64,000 bases of DNA from Gemmatimonadaceae bacterium (lineage in GTDB: Bacteria > Gemmatimonadota > Gemmatimonadetes > Gemmatimonadales > Gemmatimonadaceae), in contig JADZAN010000010.1 of the NCBI GenBank assembly GCA_020852815.1, positions 248,001 through 312,000 on the forward strand. Reading direction: 5' to 3'. Every line of letters begins with the position of its first letter. Position 1 is the stretch's first letter. Below, in pieces: positions 52,317-58,385 of the stretch. The notes below the pieces were generated by a model. The model was given only the letters and a program-made list of their open reading frames with translations. It did not search any database and was not told the origin of the DNA. The position numbers and the translations under genes were made by a program.

Positions 52317-53054
52317 GTGACCATCGCCGGCCACATTGGCCCGGCGGGGAGCGCGCCGGGGCGCCCCGACCTCGAACCCGTGCCCGGTTTCGAAGCGTTA
52401 GGGGTGATTGCCTTCACGACCACGCGCGCGCGCGGTGACTTCGCCCTCGACTCGCGGGAGCCGGCGCGCGACGTCTTCGGTCGCTGGCAAGGGCTGATGG
52501 ACATGCTGTCGCCGCACGCGACGCGCCTGGCGTTCGCGCGCCAGGTGCACGGTGATCGCGTCCTCCTGCACGAGGGGGGATGGAGCGGCTGGATGCGCGC
52601 CACCGATGCAGATGCGCACGTGACGCTGGCGCCGGCAACGGCGCTGGCGGTGACCGTCGCCGACTGCGTCCCCGTCTTCCTCGCCCATCCCACGGGAGCG
52701 GTCGCCGTGGTGCACTCGGGGTGGCGCGGGACGGTGGCGAAAGTCGCATCGCGCGCCGTACAGCGACTGGTCGAGGCCGGCGCGCCGGCACACGAACTCC
52801 ACGCGCACTGTGGTCCGTCGATCTGCGGCGGCTGTTACGAGGTCTCGAGCGAGGTGTATGCGGAGCTGACAGGTCGCGCCGTCGCCGCGCCGACGCCGGT
52901 CGACTTGCGCGCCCTCATCGCCGACGACCTGCGCGCCGCCGGCGTCCGCGATATCTCGATCAGCCCCTGGTGCACGCGCTGCGATAACACGCGCTTCTAT
53001 TCGCATCGCTGCGGCGATGCCGGGCGGCAGGTCGGCGTCATCGCCCGCATCTGA
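52317..53054 (+). CDS. pgeF: Polyphenol oxidase/laccase-domain protein (PgeF/YfiH family)
   Basis: Family members act as purine nucleoside phosphorylase/adenosine deaminase or peptidoglycan-editing factors. The metal and active-site residues are present: QVHGDRV (about 76-82), ADCVPVF (about 116), HSGWRGT (about 133) and GPSICGGCYEV (about 166-176). 245 residues, GTG start, 46 nt after murA, so cotranscription with murA is likely and fits a role near cell-wall precursors. Cytosolic, no signal peptide. Confidence 0.88.
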   Translation: MTIAGHIGPAGSAPGRPDLEPVPGFEALGVIAFTTTRARGDFALDSREPARDVFGRWQGLMDMLSPHATRLAFARQVHGDRVLLHEGGWSGWMRATDADAHVTLAPATALAVTVADCVPVFLAHPTGAVAVVHSGWRGTVAKVASRAVQRLVEAGAPAHELHAHCGPSICGGCYEVSSEVYAELTGRAVAAPTPVDLRALIADDLRAAGVRDISISPWCTRCDNTRFYSHRCGDAGRQVGVIARI

Positions 53055-53151
53055 TCGGGGGTCGAGGCGGCGTTCGACGGGGGGGGAGCGAGGCGTCCGT
53101 CGAGCCATCGGACGGCTGCCACAGGGGGGCATCGTTGCCCTCTCGGTCAGG

Positions 53152-53180
53152 TTGACCTCCCCCGGTTCGGTCCGTACATT
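53152..53180 (+). promoter_or_regulatory. Sigma70-type promoter of rimP-nusA-infB operon
   Basis: TTGACC (53152-53157) and TACATT (53175-53180) with exactly 17-nt spacing. Transcription would start near 53187, about 88 nt before rimP, with a terminator hairpin in between. Confidence 0.75.
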
Positions 53181-53218
53181 CACCTCGCTTCGCGGGGCGC
53201 TTGCCCGCGATCCGGAAA

Positions 53219-53247
53219 TGTGGGGGAGGGTTCCCCCGCATTTTTTT
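53219..53247 (+). terminator. Intrinsic terminator inside the rimP leader (candidate attenuator)
   Basis: TGTGGGGGA (53219-53227) and TCCCCCGCA (53232-53240) form a 9-bp stem with one G-U pair and a GGGT loop, followed directly by seven Ts (53241-53247). It lies 32 nt after the predicted start of transcription and 27 nt before the rimP ATG. An upstream CGCGGG/CCCGCG stem (about 53191-53209) could be part of a switch. Confidence 0.75.
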
Positions 53248-53274
53248 GTTCTTGGGCCGGTTTTTCGACGAGAT

Positions 53275-53739
53275 ATGCTTCAGGCGCTGCAGGATTTCGT
53301 TCGGCAAGAGGTGGACGCCCTGGGGTTTGACCTGGTCGAGTTCCGGAGGGGAGGAACGGCGCGTCGGCCGCTGCTCGATGTTCGCATCGACCGCCGCGAC
53401 GGGACCAAGGTGACGATCGACGATTGCGCCCACGTGTCCCGCGCGCTCGAGCCCAGGCTCGATGCGTCGGGAATGGTGGGCGATCAGTACGTGCTGGAGG
53501 TGTCGTCGCCCGGGGTTGAGCGCCCGCTGCGGCATGCGGGTGACTGGCGTCGCTTTGCCGGGCGTCGGGCGTCGGTCTCGAGCCCCGCGGTCGGGGGGCG
53601 TATCGAGGGCGACATCGTGGGGCTGGAAGGAGACGAAGGGCGCGAGGTCGCGGTGGTTCGCGACCAACGCGGTGTGGAGCATCGGGTGCCGCTGGCGGAT
53701 GTCAAGGAGGCACGTCTCGTGTTCGTCTGGAACAAGTAG
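53275..53739 (+). CDS. rimP: Ribosome maturation factor RimP
   Basis: Assists 30S subunit assembly. 154 residues with the family pattern DALGFDLVEFRRGG (about 15-28), LDVRIDRRDGTKVTIDDCAHVSRALEPRLD and YVLEVSSPGVERPL (about 75-88). ATG start. Stands directly upstream of nusA, the conserved arrangement. The upstream frame continues through the leader but has no homology. Expression probably depends on read-through of the terminator at 53219-53247. Confidence 0.93.
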   Translation: MLQALQDFVRQEVDALGFDLVEFRRGGTARRPLLDVRIDRRDGTKVTIDDCAHVSRALEPRLDASGMVGDQYVLEVSSPGVERPLRHAGDWRRFAGRRASVSSPAVGGRIEGDIVGLEGDEGREVAVVRDQRGVEHRVPLADVKEARLVFVWNK

Positions 53740-53750
53740 AGGGTCGTCGA

Positions 53751-55070
53751 ATGTCCGGAACCGCAGAGATTCTCACCGCAATTCGCGAGCTGTCCAACCT
53801 CAAGGGGCTGGACCGCACGGAATTGCATGGATTGTTGCAGGACGGCATTCACGCCGCCCTCGCCAAGAAGCATGGCGCCAATGTGCAGGCCGAGGTCGAG
53901 ATCGACGAGAACCGGGGGGACATCCGCATCGTCCTCCTCAAGACCGTCGTGGCCGAGGTCACCGACCCCTCGCGCGAAACGTCGCTCGAGGAGGCGCAGT
54001 TCGAGGACCCGGAGTTCCAGGTCGGCGACGTGATGGAGATCCCGGTCGACTTCGCCGAGTTTGGGCGCAGCGCCGTGCAGGCGGCCAAGCAGCGCATCAT
54101 CCAGCGCGTCCGTGAGGGCGAGCGCACCAAGATCCGCGACGAATTCGCCAACCGCGTCGGCGAACTCCTCTCGGGGGCGGTGCAACAGATCGAGCGCGGC
54201 AAGCTGGTGATCATCCTCAACAAGTTCGGCGAAGCGGAGGCGATCATGCCGTACCGCGAGCAGAACCACCGCGATCACTACCATCAGGGCGACCCCATTC
54301 GCGCCGCGCTCAAGCGCGTGGAGGAGACGCCCAAGGGGCCGCGCCTGATCCTGAGCCGTGCCGACCCACTCTTCGTGAAGGCGCTCTTCAAGCTCGAGGT
54401 CCCGGAAATCCAGCAGGGCATCGTCGAGATCCGCGCCGCCGCCCGTGAGGTGGGGAGCCGCACCAAGATTGCCGTCTGGTCGCGCGACGACGCGATCGAC
54501 CCGGTGGGGGCGTGCGTCGGCCTCAAGGGGGCGCGCGTGCAAGCCGTGGTGAACGAACTCAGCGGCGAGCGCATCGACATCGTGCCATGGTCGGCCGATC
54601 CCGAGCGCTTTGCCAAGCTGGCGCTGGCGCCGGCCAAGGTGGCGCGCGTCTTCTCCGATCCGGAGGGAAAGGCGATCCAGGCGGTGGTGGACGAGGACCA
54701 GCTCTCGCTGGCCATCGGACGCAACGGGCAGAACGTGCGCCTGGCGTCGGAGCTGACGGGGTGGAAGATCGACCTGTACTCGAGCCGCGAATGGCTGGAG
54801 CGCAGCGAAGGGCCGATCTTTGCCCCGCTCCCCGAGGAACAGGATGCGGCGGACGTGAAGCTCGCCGAGCTCGGAGGGATGCCGCCGGCGACGGTGGCCA
54901 TCCTCGAAGAGGCGGGATACCGTACCTTGAACGACATCATCGATCTGGAGCGCGAGGATTTCCTGCGACTCCCCGGCATCGCGCCGGAGGAAGCCGATCG
55001 CATCATGGGAATCGTGAACGAACTCACGACCGATGAGGAAGGAAACGGCGACGGTCCGGCCGGGGCGTAG
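53751..55070 (+). CDS. nusA: Transcription termination/antitermination factor NusA
   Basis: Binds RNA polymerase and nascent RNA to set pausing and termination. 439 residues: an N-terminal RNAP-binding domain (about 1-130), S1 domain, KH1 and KH2 with VGLKGARVQAVVNELSGERIDIV and AIGRNGQNVRLASELTGWKIDL, and an HhH-like C-terminus (about 375-425). A NusA-rich cell would favour its own leader hairpin, suggesting feedback. ATG start, 11 nt after rimP. Confidence 0.96.
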   Translation: MSGTAEILTAIRELSNLKGLDRTELHGLLQDGIHAALAKKHGANVQAEVEIDENRGDIRIVLLKTVVAEVTDPSRETSLEEAQFEDPEFQVGDVMEIPVDFAEFGRSAVQAAKQRIIQRVREGERTKIRDEFANRVGELLSGAVQQIERGKLVIILNKFGEAEAIMPYREQNHRDHYHQGDPIRAALKRVEETPKGPRLILSRADPLFVKALFKLEVPEIQQGIVEIRAAAREVGSRTKIAVWSRDDAIDPVGACVGLKGARVQAVVNELSGERIDIVPWSADPERFAKLALAPAKVARVFSDPEGKAIQAVVDEDQLSLAIGRNGQNVRLASELTGWKIDLYSSREWLERSEGPIFAPLPEEQDAADVKLAELGGMPPATVAILEEAGYRTLNDIIDLEREDFLRLPGIAPEEADRIMGIVNELTTDEEGNGDGPAGA

Positions 55071-55472
55071 TTGAAGACGTCACCACCGGACGACACGCCG
55101 GCAGTTCGCGCGGGAACCGCGATGGATGCGTCCACGGAGCGACGGTTGCTCGGGTTGCTGGGGCTCGGCGTGCGTGGGCGCGGCGCGATCGTGGGAGTCG
55201 ACCGTGTGCGTGAGGCGGCGAAGAAAGGGCTGCTCGCAGTGGCAGTCGTTGCGCCTGACGCTTCGCGGCATTCGCGGGACAAGGTCGTGCCGCTCCTCGA
55301 GGCACGGCGCATACGAATCATCGAGGGGCCCTCGGCGGCAGCGTTAGGCAACGCCGTGGGGCGAGAGGCGACGGCCGTGGTCGGGGTCACCGATCGTGCG
55401 CTGGCGTCGGGCGTGCTCGCGCTGTGTGGCGCGGGCAATGATGGGGACACGGGTCCGGCACGGGCCCGCTAG
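55071..55472 (+). CDS. L7Ae-family protein of the nusA-infB operon (YlxQ-like)
   Basis: YlxQ proteins are small L7Ae-like presumed RNA-binding proteins between nusA and infB. RLLGLLGLGVRGRGAIVGVDRVREAAKKGLLAVAVVAPDAS fits the fold, but it is short (133 residues) with an atypical N-terminal 17 residues. TTG start directly at the nusA stop; an in-frame ATG at 55122 (before DASTERRLL) may be the true start. The YlxR gene that usually precedes it is missing. Ends 9 nt before infB. Confidence 0.75.
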   Translation: MKTSPPDDTPAVRAGTAMDASTERRLLGLLGLGVRGRGAIVGVDRVREAAKKGLLAVAVVAPDASRHSRDKVVPLLEARRIRIIEGPSAAALGNAVGREATAVVGVTDRALASGVLALCGAGNDGDTGPARAR

Positions 55473-55481
55473 GAGGATCGT

Positions 55482-58385
55482 TTGAGCAAGCTTCGCGTAC
55501 ACGACATGGCAGGGGAGTTCGGGATCTCCGCGGACGAAGTGATCGGCATGCTTCGGTCGATGGACGTACCCGTGCGCAGCCACTTGACGGTGCTCACGGA
55601 CGACCAGGTGGCGCGCGTGCGCGCCCGCTGGGAGCGTGAGAAGCGCGCGCGCCAGGAAAAGCCGGCGCCCGCCCCCGCCGCCACACGCCGCCGCAAGGGA
55701 GCGCCCGCCGCCACCACGGCAGCCGCCGCGAGCGCGGAGGCGGTCCCGGCCGCCGCCCCGTCAGCGATTCCCGTCGCGGAAGGCGCCGCCGGCGCCGCGG
55801 GTGCCACCGGCGCCGCGGGTGCCACCGGCGCCGCGGGCGCCACCAGTGCCAAGGGCGGCGTGCGACGCCGTCGGGCCGCCGACGTCGCGGCCGCTGCCGA
55901 AGCGCTCGAAGTCGCCGCGGAAGAGGCAGCCGCCGTCGAAGTCCCGGCGACGGCCATCGCCGAGGAGCGGGTCTCCCCGGTCGAGGTCGCCGTGGCTGAG
56001 ACTCCTGCCGCCCCGGCGGTCGAGGCGGAGACGCCACGTGCCGCCGCCGTGGAGGTGGCCGAGCCCGAGTCGCCCGCCGCGCCGGAAGCGCCGGCGCCGG
56101 TCGTGGCGCGTGCCCCGGAGCCGGTCGTTCCCGTGGCGCCTCCACCTCCGCCGCCTCCGCCGCCGTCCGCGCCGCCCATCCAGCCGCAGACGTACTCGAC
56201 CGGCCCGTCCATCCCGGACCGGCCGCGCCCGCGTCCCATCGTCCCTGGCGCCCCGCGCCCGCGCGCCGGGCAGGGGGGCGGTTTCGAGCGCCCGCGACCG
56301 GTCGCCTCGGCGTCGCCCTCGGGGGCCGTTGGTCTCCCGCCGCGCCGTGACGAACAGCGCGGCAAGCCCGGCGCCGGTGGTGGCACGGCGTCGTCGGGAT
56401 CGTCGCAGGCGCCGCAGCAGCAACAGCAGCGCGGGAAGAAGAAGGGGAAGCGGGGGGCGGTCGACCAGGAAGAAGTGTCGGCCAACATCTCGCGCGTCAT
56501 GGGCGCCATGCGTGGCGGCGCCCCCAAGCGTGGCGGGCCGCGCCGCGATGACGGACGCGAGGAACTCGAGGCGATTCGCCGCGAGGAGGCCGAGCGCGAG
56601 AAGAAGACGGTGCGCGTCAACGAGTTCATCACCGTTGGTGAACTCGCCGAGATCCTCAAGCTCTCGGCCAGCCAGATCGTCGCCTTTGCCTTCAAGAACC
56701 TCGGGTTGATGGTCACCATCAACCAGCGGCTCGACTTCGACCAGATCGAGTTGATCGCGGGCGAGTTCGGCTTCCAGGCGGTGCGCGAGGAGGAGTACGC
56801 CGCCGACATGGGGGAGACCAAGGCCGAGGACAAGCCCGAAGACCTCGTCTTCCGGCCGCCGGTCGTCACCATCATGGGTCACGTCGACCACGGCAAGACG
56901 TCGCTCCTCGACTACATCCGGAAAGCGAACGTCGTCGCCGGCGAGGCGGGCGGCATCACGCAGCACATCGGGGCGTACCACGTCACGCTGCCTAACGGCA
57001 AGCAGATCACCTTCCTCGACACCCCGGGCCACGAGGCGTTCACCGCCATGCGTGCCCGCGGTGCCCAGGTGACGGACATCGTCATCCTCGTCGTCGCGGC
57101 CAACGATTCCGTCATGCCGCAGACGATCGAGGCCATCTCGCACGCCAAGAACGCTGGCGTGCCGATGATCGTGGCGATCAACAAGGTCGACCTCCCTGAC
57201 GCCAACCCGATGCGCGTGATGCAGGACCTCCTGCAGCACGGCGTCGTGCTCGAGGACTTCGGCGGGACGACCCTGTCGACCGCCGTCTCGGCCAAGAAGG
57301 GGACCAACGTTCCCGACCTCCTCGACCAGGTGCTCCTGCAGGCCGAAGTGCTCGACCTCAAGGCCAACCCCGACCGGAAGGCGACCGGGTCGGTCGTCGA
57401 GGCGCAGCTCGACCCGGGAAAGGGGCCGGTGGCAACCATCCTCGTGCAGAGCGGGACGCTGCACGTGGGGGACGACTTCATCTGCGGCCTGCACTCCGGG
57501 CGCGTGCGCGCCATGCTCGACGAGCGCGGCAAGCCGGTGAAGGTGGCCGGACCGGCGATCCCGGTGCAGGTACTCGGCCTGACCGGCGTTCCGATGGCCG
57601 GCGACCAGTTCGTCGTCGTCGAGGATGCCAGCCAGGCGCGCGAGATCGCGCAGCGCCGCGAGCGCCTCGATCGTGAGGCGAAGAGCCGTCGCACCAGCAA
57701 GGGCGTGGTCTCGCTCGAGGACTTCATGTCGCAGGCGGCCGCCGGCCAGAAGCGGACGCTCAACCTGATCATCAAGGCCGACCAGGGCGGACCGGCGGAA
57801 GCGCTCGCCGACGCGCTGCAGAAGCTCTCCAACAGCGAAGTGCAGGTGGACGTCGTGCACCGCGGCGTCGGCGCCATCACCGAGGGCGACATCCTGCTCG
57901 CGCGCACGTCGGGCGCGATCATCATCGGCTTCCATGTGCGGCCTGACAACAACGCCCGTGCAGCAGCGGAGCGCGAAGGGGTCGACATCAAGCTCTATCG
58001 GATCATCTACGAGGCCGTGGCCGACGTGCGCGCCGCGCTCGAGGGCATGCTCCGTCCGGAAGAGCGGGAGGTGGTGCTGGGCGAGGCCGAGGTGCGCGAG
58101 ATCTTCAAGGTGTCGCGCATCGGGACCATCGCCGGGTGCTCGGTCCGCAGCGGTATCATCACCAAGACGGGTCGCGTTCGCCTCATTCGCGACGCGGTCG
58201 AGGTGTACGACGGCACGCTGGCGTCGCTCCGTCGCTTCAAGGACGACGTCAAGGAAGTCAAGGAAGGCTACGAGTGCGGTATTGGCCTCGAGAACTTCAA
58301 CGACCTCAAGGTCGGCGACGTGATCGAGTGCTACAAGACGGAGGAAGTCGCCCGTACGCTGCAGCCCGAATCGGCGGGAAGCTGA
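55482..58385 (+). CDS. infB: Translation initiation factor IF-2
   Basis: GTPase that brings initiator tRNA to the 30S subunit. 967 residues: an IF2_N domain (about 1-50), a long low-complexity Ala/Pro/Gly-rich region (about 60-330) with a collagen-like GAAGAT repeat (about 104-121), a second IF2_N (about 370-425), then the GTPase with G1 GHVDHGKT (466-473), DTPGHE and NKVD, followed by C-terminal EF-Tu-like domains and the IF2 fold. TTG start with AGGAGG (55471-55476) 5 nt upstream. Confidence 0.97.
55791..55844 (+). repeat. Three tandem 18-bp repeats in infB
   Basis: GGCGCCGCGGGTGCCACC three times in frame (55791, 55809 and 55827; the third has one change), coding Gly-Ala-Ala-Gly-Ala-Thr. 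Gly at every third position gives a collagen-like tract in the disordered linker. Confidence 0.85.

Follow-up and report, generated by a model that had tools for sequence, protein, structure and literature searches.

The nusA operon of Gemmatimonadota opens with a short leader in which an intrinsic terminator, referred to here as P2, has been maintained through the phylum. On comparative grounds it is close to certain that P2 acts as a functional leader terminator of this operon, and a probable role for it is that of a transcription attenuator, at which NusA would hold down the transcription of its own operon. The element appears to go with nusA rather than with rimP, the gene that usually follows it, and this association is supported by the operons from which rimP has disappeared.

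The leader and its operon in the window

The window, i.e. the whole stretch of 64,000 nucleotides that was analysed, comes from a Gemmatimonadota genome. It carries, in order, murA, pgeF, the leader, rimP, nusA, ylxQ, infB, rbfA, truB and ribF, and the features relevant to the leader are listed in Table 1.

Table 1. Features of the leader and of the genes behind it, in window coordinates.
Feature	Position	Strand	Basis or remark
-35 element TTGACC	53152..53157	+	sequence, promoter scan
-10 element TACATT	53175..53180	+	17-nt spacer to -35; sequence, promoter scan
Predicted start site	~53187	+	from spacing behind the -10 element
Hairpin P1, TCGCGGG-GCGCTTG-CCCGCGA	53190..53210	+	leader segment folds at -13.7 kcal/mol (shuffle p 0.07)
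Terminator stem-loop P2	53216..53243	+	sequence, scan, comparative search; -18.1 kcal/mol
P2 5' arm AAATGTGGGGGA	53216..53227	+	
P2 loop GGGT	53228..53231	+	
P2 3' arm TCCCCCGCATTT	53232..53243	+	
T-tract, seven Ts	53241..53247	+	a leader RNA of ~60 nt is predicted to end here
rimP	53275..53739	+	matches to 27 NCBIfam families under 0.001, nearly all of them RimP models
nusA	53751..55070	+	TIGR01953, 383.6 bits, above cut-off
ylxQ, L7Ae-like RNA-binding protein	55071..55472	+	weak NCBIfam matches, under cut-offs
infB	55482..58385	+	TIGR00487, 805 bits

The sigma-70-like promoter of the original prediction, TTGACC-17-TACATT (53152-53180), was recovered ahead of rimP both in the sequence and by the promoter scan. 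The end of its -10 element lies about 35 nt before the P2 stem, and the T-tract is followed, after 27 nt, by the ATG of rimP at 53275. An intrinsic terminator with a 9-bp stem and seven Ts had been proposed here; the terminator and the T-tract stand, whereas the stem is longer, with 14 pairs counted by the scan, and includes the motif GUGGGG at 53220-53225. When the whole leader is folded (minimum energy -42.4 kcal/mol, z -2.72), P2 is unbroken and the arms of the upstream hairpin P1 pair elsewhere.

In 69 of 80 leaders a promoter with at least 8 of the 12 consensus bases precedes the terminator, as compared to 7.1% of 1600 shuffles; 60 of these 69 promoters have a 17-nt spacer. The -35 element of the window is spanned by an inverted repeat, GGTCA-N3-TGACC (53146-53158), which is possibly an operator or a chance occurrence; GTCAGGTTGAC or a near form of it is kept in both congeners (L002, L003). 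A literature search for a start-site study of Gemmatimonas found none.

Conservation, scarcity and layout of the terminator

A terminator is present at this place in 127 of the 128 distinct Gemmatimonadota genomes whose leaders were read, a set that comprises the closest relatives and a hand-picked spread over the families rather than a random draw. The figure is composed of 79 of 80 distinct genomes, 27 further genomes (P2 by regex in 26 and by eye in one), 19 genomes that lack rimP (by regex in 16 and by eye in three) and two further genomes with rimP (by eye). The regex fixes G at stem positions 0 and 2-4, and the independent test is a letter-blind detector of a hairpin plus T-tract, which, applied to the 250 nt upstream of rimP, succeeded in 79 of 81 loci as compared to 37 of 1620 dinucleotide shuffles. 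Its best pick was a more upstream hairpin in six loci, all of which also contain P2. The letter-aware search placed P2 in 80 of the 81 loci, corresponding to 79 of 80 distinct genomes, L034 and L015 being one genome, of which L034 was left out of the pair counts. P2 is missing only in G058 (L044, L160), which still has the promoter; the NusA of this genome sits on a long branch (0.93) in the NusA tree.

The usual stem is of the form GUGGGG...CCCCAC, with AAGUGGGG or AAUGUGGGG facing CCCCACUU or CCCCACAUU, while GCGGGC/GCCCGC occurs in part of family f2 and GUCGGG/CCCGGC in one genus. Pair types were counted in 79 genomes on script-anchored arms, and not on the MAFFT alignment, where the 5' arms of some rows were displaced. 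Pair -1 is split between U-A (35 genomes) and A-U (34). At pair -2, 54 genomes have A-U and 12 have G-C; at pair 1, U-A (50) is accompanied by U-G (23) and C-G (six), and at pair 5, G-C (73) by C-G (six). These exchanged pair types are compensatory changes that support the P2 stem, so that the covariation sought in the leaders of relatives is found at four stem pairs, and the conservation of stem and T-tract in close relatives, on which the original prediction had been made to depend, extends through the phylum. The GGG/CCC core is near-invariant, partly by construction, as the regex selected on it. Loops, P1 and flanks are variable and the stem and T-tract alone are constant; the flanks were judged from a column table whose 3' anchor is one off in many rows and whose 3' side is good for flanks only. 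In most leaders the T-tract is directly followed by [GA]TT, as at 53248-53250 in the window, and conservation thus extends beyond the expected release point.

The terminator is practically a single-copy element. A strict stem pattern matched in 24 of 41 relatives, with one match per genome, always before rimP. A wider pattern, which by design omits the f2, f10 and AGUGUGGGG variants, matched in 170 of the 249 genomes of the phylum, with a single match in 165, and its reversed form gave two matches across all 249. Among the matches listed with a listed place for rimP, the distance to the downstream rimP is below 250 nt in 92 of 96 (median 39), another 54 of the 150 listed matches having no listed rimP place and being unscored for distance. 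The other four of the 96 are two second matches and two matches in genomes whose rimP leader carries the GCGGGC stem (L039, L040). A regulon of identical terminators was considered and rejected, the pattern being single-copy.

On both strands of the whole 325.7-kb contig (325,702 bases, G+C 69.1%), eight places pass a threshold of at least 6 pairs with 6 T of 8, several of them inside long open frames, and two pass 8 pairs with 7 T of 8. Intrinsic terminators of good quality are hence rare in this genome; P2, which is one, sits at the 5' end of an operon. It is maintained where such terminators are scarce. Rho is present in the genome; a second strong Rho-like match, below cut-off, lies at G000:C2:146663-147727.

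Three leader layouts were observed, and only P2 is common to all of them. Most leaders have a variable stretch with a P1 hairpin, followed by P2. Tandem terminators, in which P1 has its own T-run, occur in 8 of the 13 family-f5 leaders examined (L045-L047, L050-L053, L078) and in three leaders of other families; in several of the f5 leaders the 5' arm of P1 is C-rich and the 3' arm G-rich, the opposite of P2, as has also been described for some Gammaproteobacteria. The third layout is minimal: in 12 leaders P2 starts on the predicted start site or only a few bases from it, which leaves no room there for any upstream structure.

The CGCGGG/CCCGCG stem in the window, suggested earlier as the alternative structure to the terminator, does exist, but as a separate hairpin, P1, that does not overlap P2, and the proposed antiterminator pairing is at the level of chance. 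Pairing of the leader with the P2 5' arm, compared with shuffles, reached p<=0.05 in three of 68 leaders (median p 0.495) and p 0.19 in the leader of the window itself. An antiterminator or riboswitch was rejected on this basis, together with the lack of any Rfam match near a gathering score. P1 itself is somewhat enriched, at p<=0.05 in 21 of 68 leaders against 3.4 expected, and is absent from the minimal leaders; these data weakly support P1 as a conserved functional hairpin.

Loss of rimP and retention of the leader

RimP was not found in 27 of the 249 genomes, and the Pfam family RimP_N gave nothing above cut-off in any of the 27. Six of these also lack nusA and were taken as assembly gaps; in two others, which are truncated at contig ends, an apparent RimP C-terminus lies upstream of nusA. 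In all the remaining 19 genomes (G137, G135, G180, G244, G125, G149, G060, G161, G123, G029, G054, G156, G116, G097, G065, G232, G104, G174 and G089; loci L116, L117, L120-L129 and L132-L138) the upstream region is intact, no space is left for rimP, and nusA directly follows the promoter and terminator. P2 is 84-229 nt from nusA in the 16 of these operons that were found by regex.

On a NusA tree made by a quick method with SH-aLRT support only (L178 dropped; L119, L131 and L139 labelled unknown because their contigs are cut), the absence of rimP corresponds to five changes, and the well-supported branches force five. Since rimP is present in the surrounding lineages, the five changes are read as independent losses. 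In one genus, the leader is followed by rimP in two members and by nusA in three.

RimP is not required for retention of the leader, which is kept in 19 of 19 operons without it, and RimP is excluded as a required sensor. infB stays with nusA in each of the 19. No YlxQ-like match was obtained by BLAST between nusA and infB in any of the seven rimP-less operons of family f5 (L132-L138), in which P2 is kept; ylxQ has either been lost there or is too divergent for BLAST. Five losses of rimP within one phylum, with the leader kept before nusA each time, amount to a natural experiment by which RimP is eliminated as a requirement. Retention of such a leader after loss of rimP was not met in the literature found by a limited search, nor in the section of PMC2965389 devoted to the rimP-leader.

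Known attenuators and the probable mode of regulation

The closest known counterpart is the rimP-leader of Naville and Gautheret (2010), described as the most ubiquitous attenuator, with a conserved stem and a missing antiterminator (PMC2965389). As characterised there, it is a short conserved terminator before rimP-nusA-infB with a G-rich 5' arm, a C-rich 3' arm and a U-tract, with no larger conserved element and, in its general form, no visible antiterminator (PMC2965389); the Gemmatimonadota element resembles it in all these respects, and the position, the terminator arms and the lack of a visible antiterminator are found in the window. The published motif is GGGc(...)gCCC (PMC2965389), its lower-case letters being read here as a preference, as compared to the usual GUGGGG...CCCCAC in the present set and GCGGGC...GCCCGC in the f2 subgroup; the window has the GGG/CCC core, followed by a G-C pair, and C-G is found at that pair only in part of f2. 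The hosts named in the rimP-leader section are Firmicutes and Gammaproteobacteria (PMC2965389), whereas the present leaders are from Gemmatimonadota. Rfam RF01770 (rimP) gave no match at E<=10 in the whole genome and none in the region, and membership of P2 in RF01770 was rejected, the covariance model being without a match.

A 2025 review relates, for Mondal 2016, that NusA of Bacillus subtilis controls its own gene by stimulating intrinsic termination in the leader (PMC12288461). The likeness is that the leader of this operon holds an intrinsic terminator in both cases, while NusA dependence is experimental in B. subtilis (PMC12288461) and deduced here. The leader of Bacillus velezensis contains AAAGAGTGGGGAAACCCGCTCTTT. 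One feature of an autoregulatory attenuator of this kind, namely that the NusA-encoding operon has a terminator in its leader, is seen in Gemmatimonadota also without rimP (19 of 19). RNA-seq of Streptococcus agalactiae placed the end of the rimP leader 31 nt after the start site, and NusA feedback was suggested (PMC4448216); that leader resembles the 12 minimal leaders of Gemmatimonadota, the window leader being longer (~60 nt) and having P1. The metY-rimP leader of Escherichia coli has tandem terminators before rimP; a tandem is also present in most of the family-f5 leaders examined, in contrast to the window, where P1 has no T-run.

Ten leaders of other groups were examined with a looser detector, which placed a terminator 17-124 nt before rimP in eight. 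The stem is of the AGTG...CACT or CGCT type in six of the eight (Bacillus, Monoglobus, Acetoanaerobium, Fusobacterium, Sinorhizobium and Niveibacterium), and the terminators of Amphritea and E. coli have other stems. By the same detector no terminator was seen in the leaders of Neochlamydia, where rimP is absent, and Nonomuraea. Shuffles of these ten leaders match in 0 to 13 of 50 each, and single cases hence need caution.

The Gemmatimonadota element is a new and well-populated branch of a known kind of attenuator, with no new mechanism, and the idea of NusA feedback for such leaders is already in print (PMC2965389, PMC4448216, PMC12288461). A limited search found no literature linking Gemmatimonadota with a nusA leader. 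What is added here is the anatomy of the element across a phylum, its minimal and tandem layouts and the five losses of rimP. The last of these bear on a choice left undecided in 2010, when NusA was proposed as the regulator of the rimP-leader, with RimP as the alternative (PMC2965389).

P2 is thus proposed to attenuate transcription of the nusA operon in cis. Starting at ~53187, RNA polymerase would make ~60 nt of RNA and then either stop at P2 or read through into rimP-nusA-ylxQ-infB. NusA, being a product of the operon, would stimulate termination at P2, more NusA leading to less transcription of the operon. An antiterminator would be unnecessary, and the set-point would lie in the terminator itself. 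This whole model, in which termination in the cell, its partial extent and its control by NusA are all deduced from sequence comparison, is the best reading and one that we hold to be likely. Against it, NusA stimulates about 75% of the intrinsic terminators of B. subtilis (PMC12288461), and such activity alone does not explain a conserved stem sequence. An effect of IF2 may also be involved, infB being with nusA in all 19 rimP-less operons.

P2 might instead be a fixed brake that stops a constant fraction of transcripts and so sets the output of the operon without feedback. All the sequence evidence is equally compatible with such a brake; however, a near-invariant stem and single-copy use exceed the needs of a constant terminator, and feedback on nusA expression has been reported in E. 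coli and B. subtilis (PMC12288461, PMC6511841, PMC2965389), which together make it unlikely. It is quite unlikely, too, that another factor, e.g. a cold-shock protein, NusG, YlxQ or IF2, sets the read-through by way of the conserved stem. The high conservation of the primary sequence and the increase of all the transcript bands of the E. coli operon after cold stress (PMC6511841) are in its favour, but the rimP-less operons eliminate RimP as a necessary factor, and YlxQ is undetected in the seven f5 operons that retain P2. A trans-acting small RNA, conserved for the sake of its targets, is very improbable even though a rimP-leader RNA is among the ProQ-associated small RNAs (PMC5391140), given that loop and P1 are variable, that the constant part is the stem and T-tract and that the minimal leaders hold almost no further sequence. 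Equally remote is a 3' terminator of pgeF with a separate downstream promoter for rimP: pgeF is co-directional with the operon and ends at 53054, but a conserved promoter lies shortly before P2, S. meliloti has the terminator although its upstream gene is on the opposite strand, and the interval between T-tract and ATG is too short for another promoter with its start site, which also argues against a main promoter downstream of 53247, a reservation attached to the original prediction.

Within the preferred model of feedback by NusA, a more specific version can be considered tentatively, as a possibility that we judge rather less than even: P2 may be a dedicated, sequence-specific sensor whose GGG/CCC core is read by polymerase-bound NusA, beyond the mere folding of the hairpin. 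The minimal leaders offer the smallest construct for testing how the level of NusA is sensed. If the proposal is true, a bare hairpin of ~30 nt with which a transcript begins would serve to measure NusA across much of the bacterial world, and this sensor hairpin would persist as long as nusA does, whichever gene comes first.
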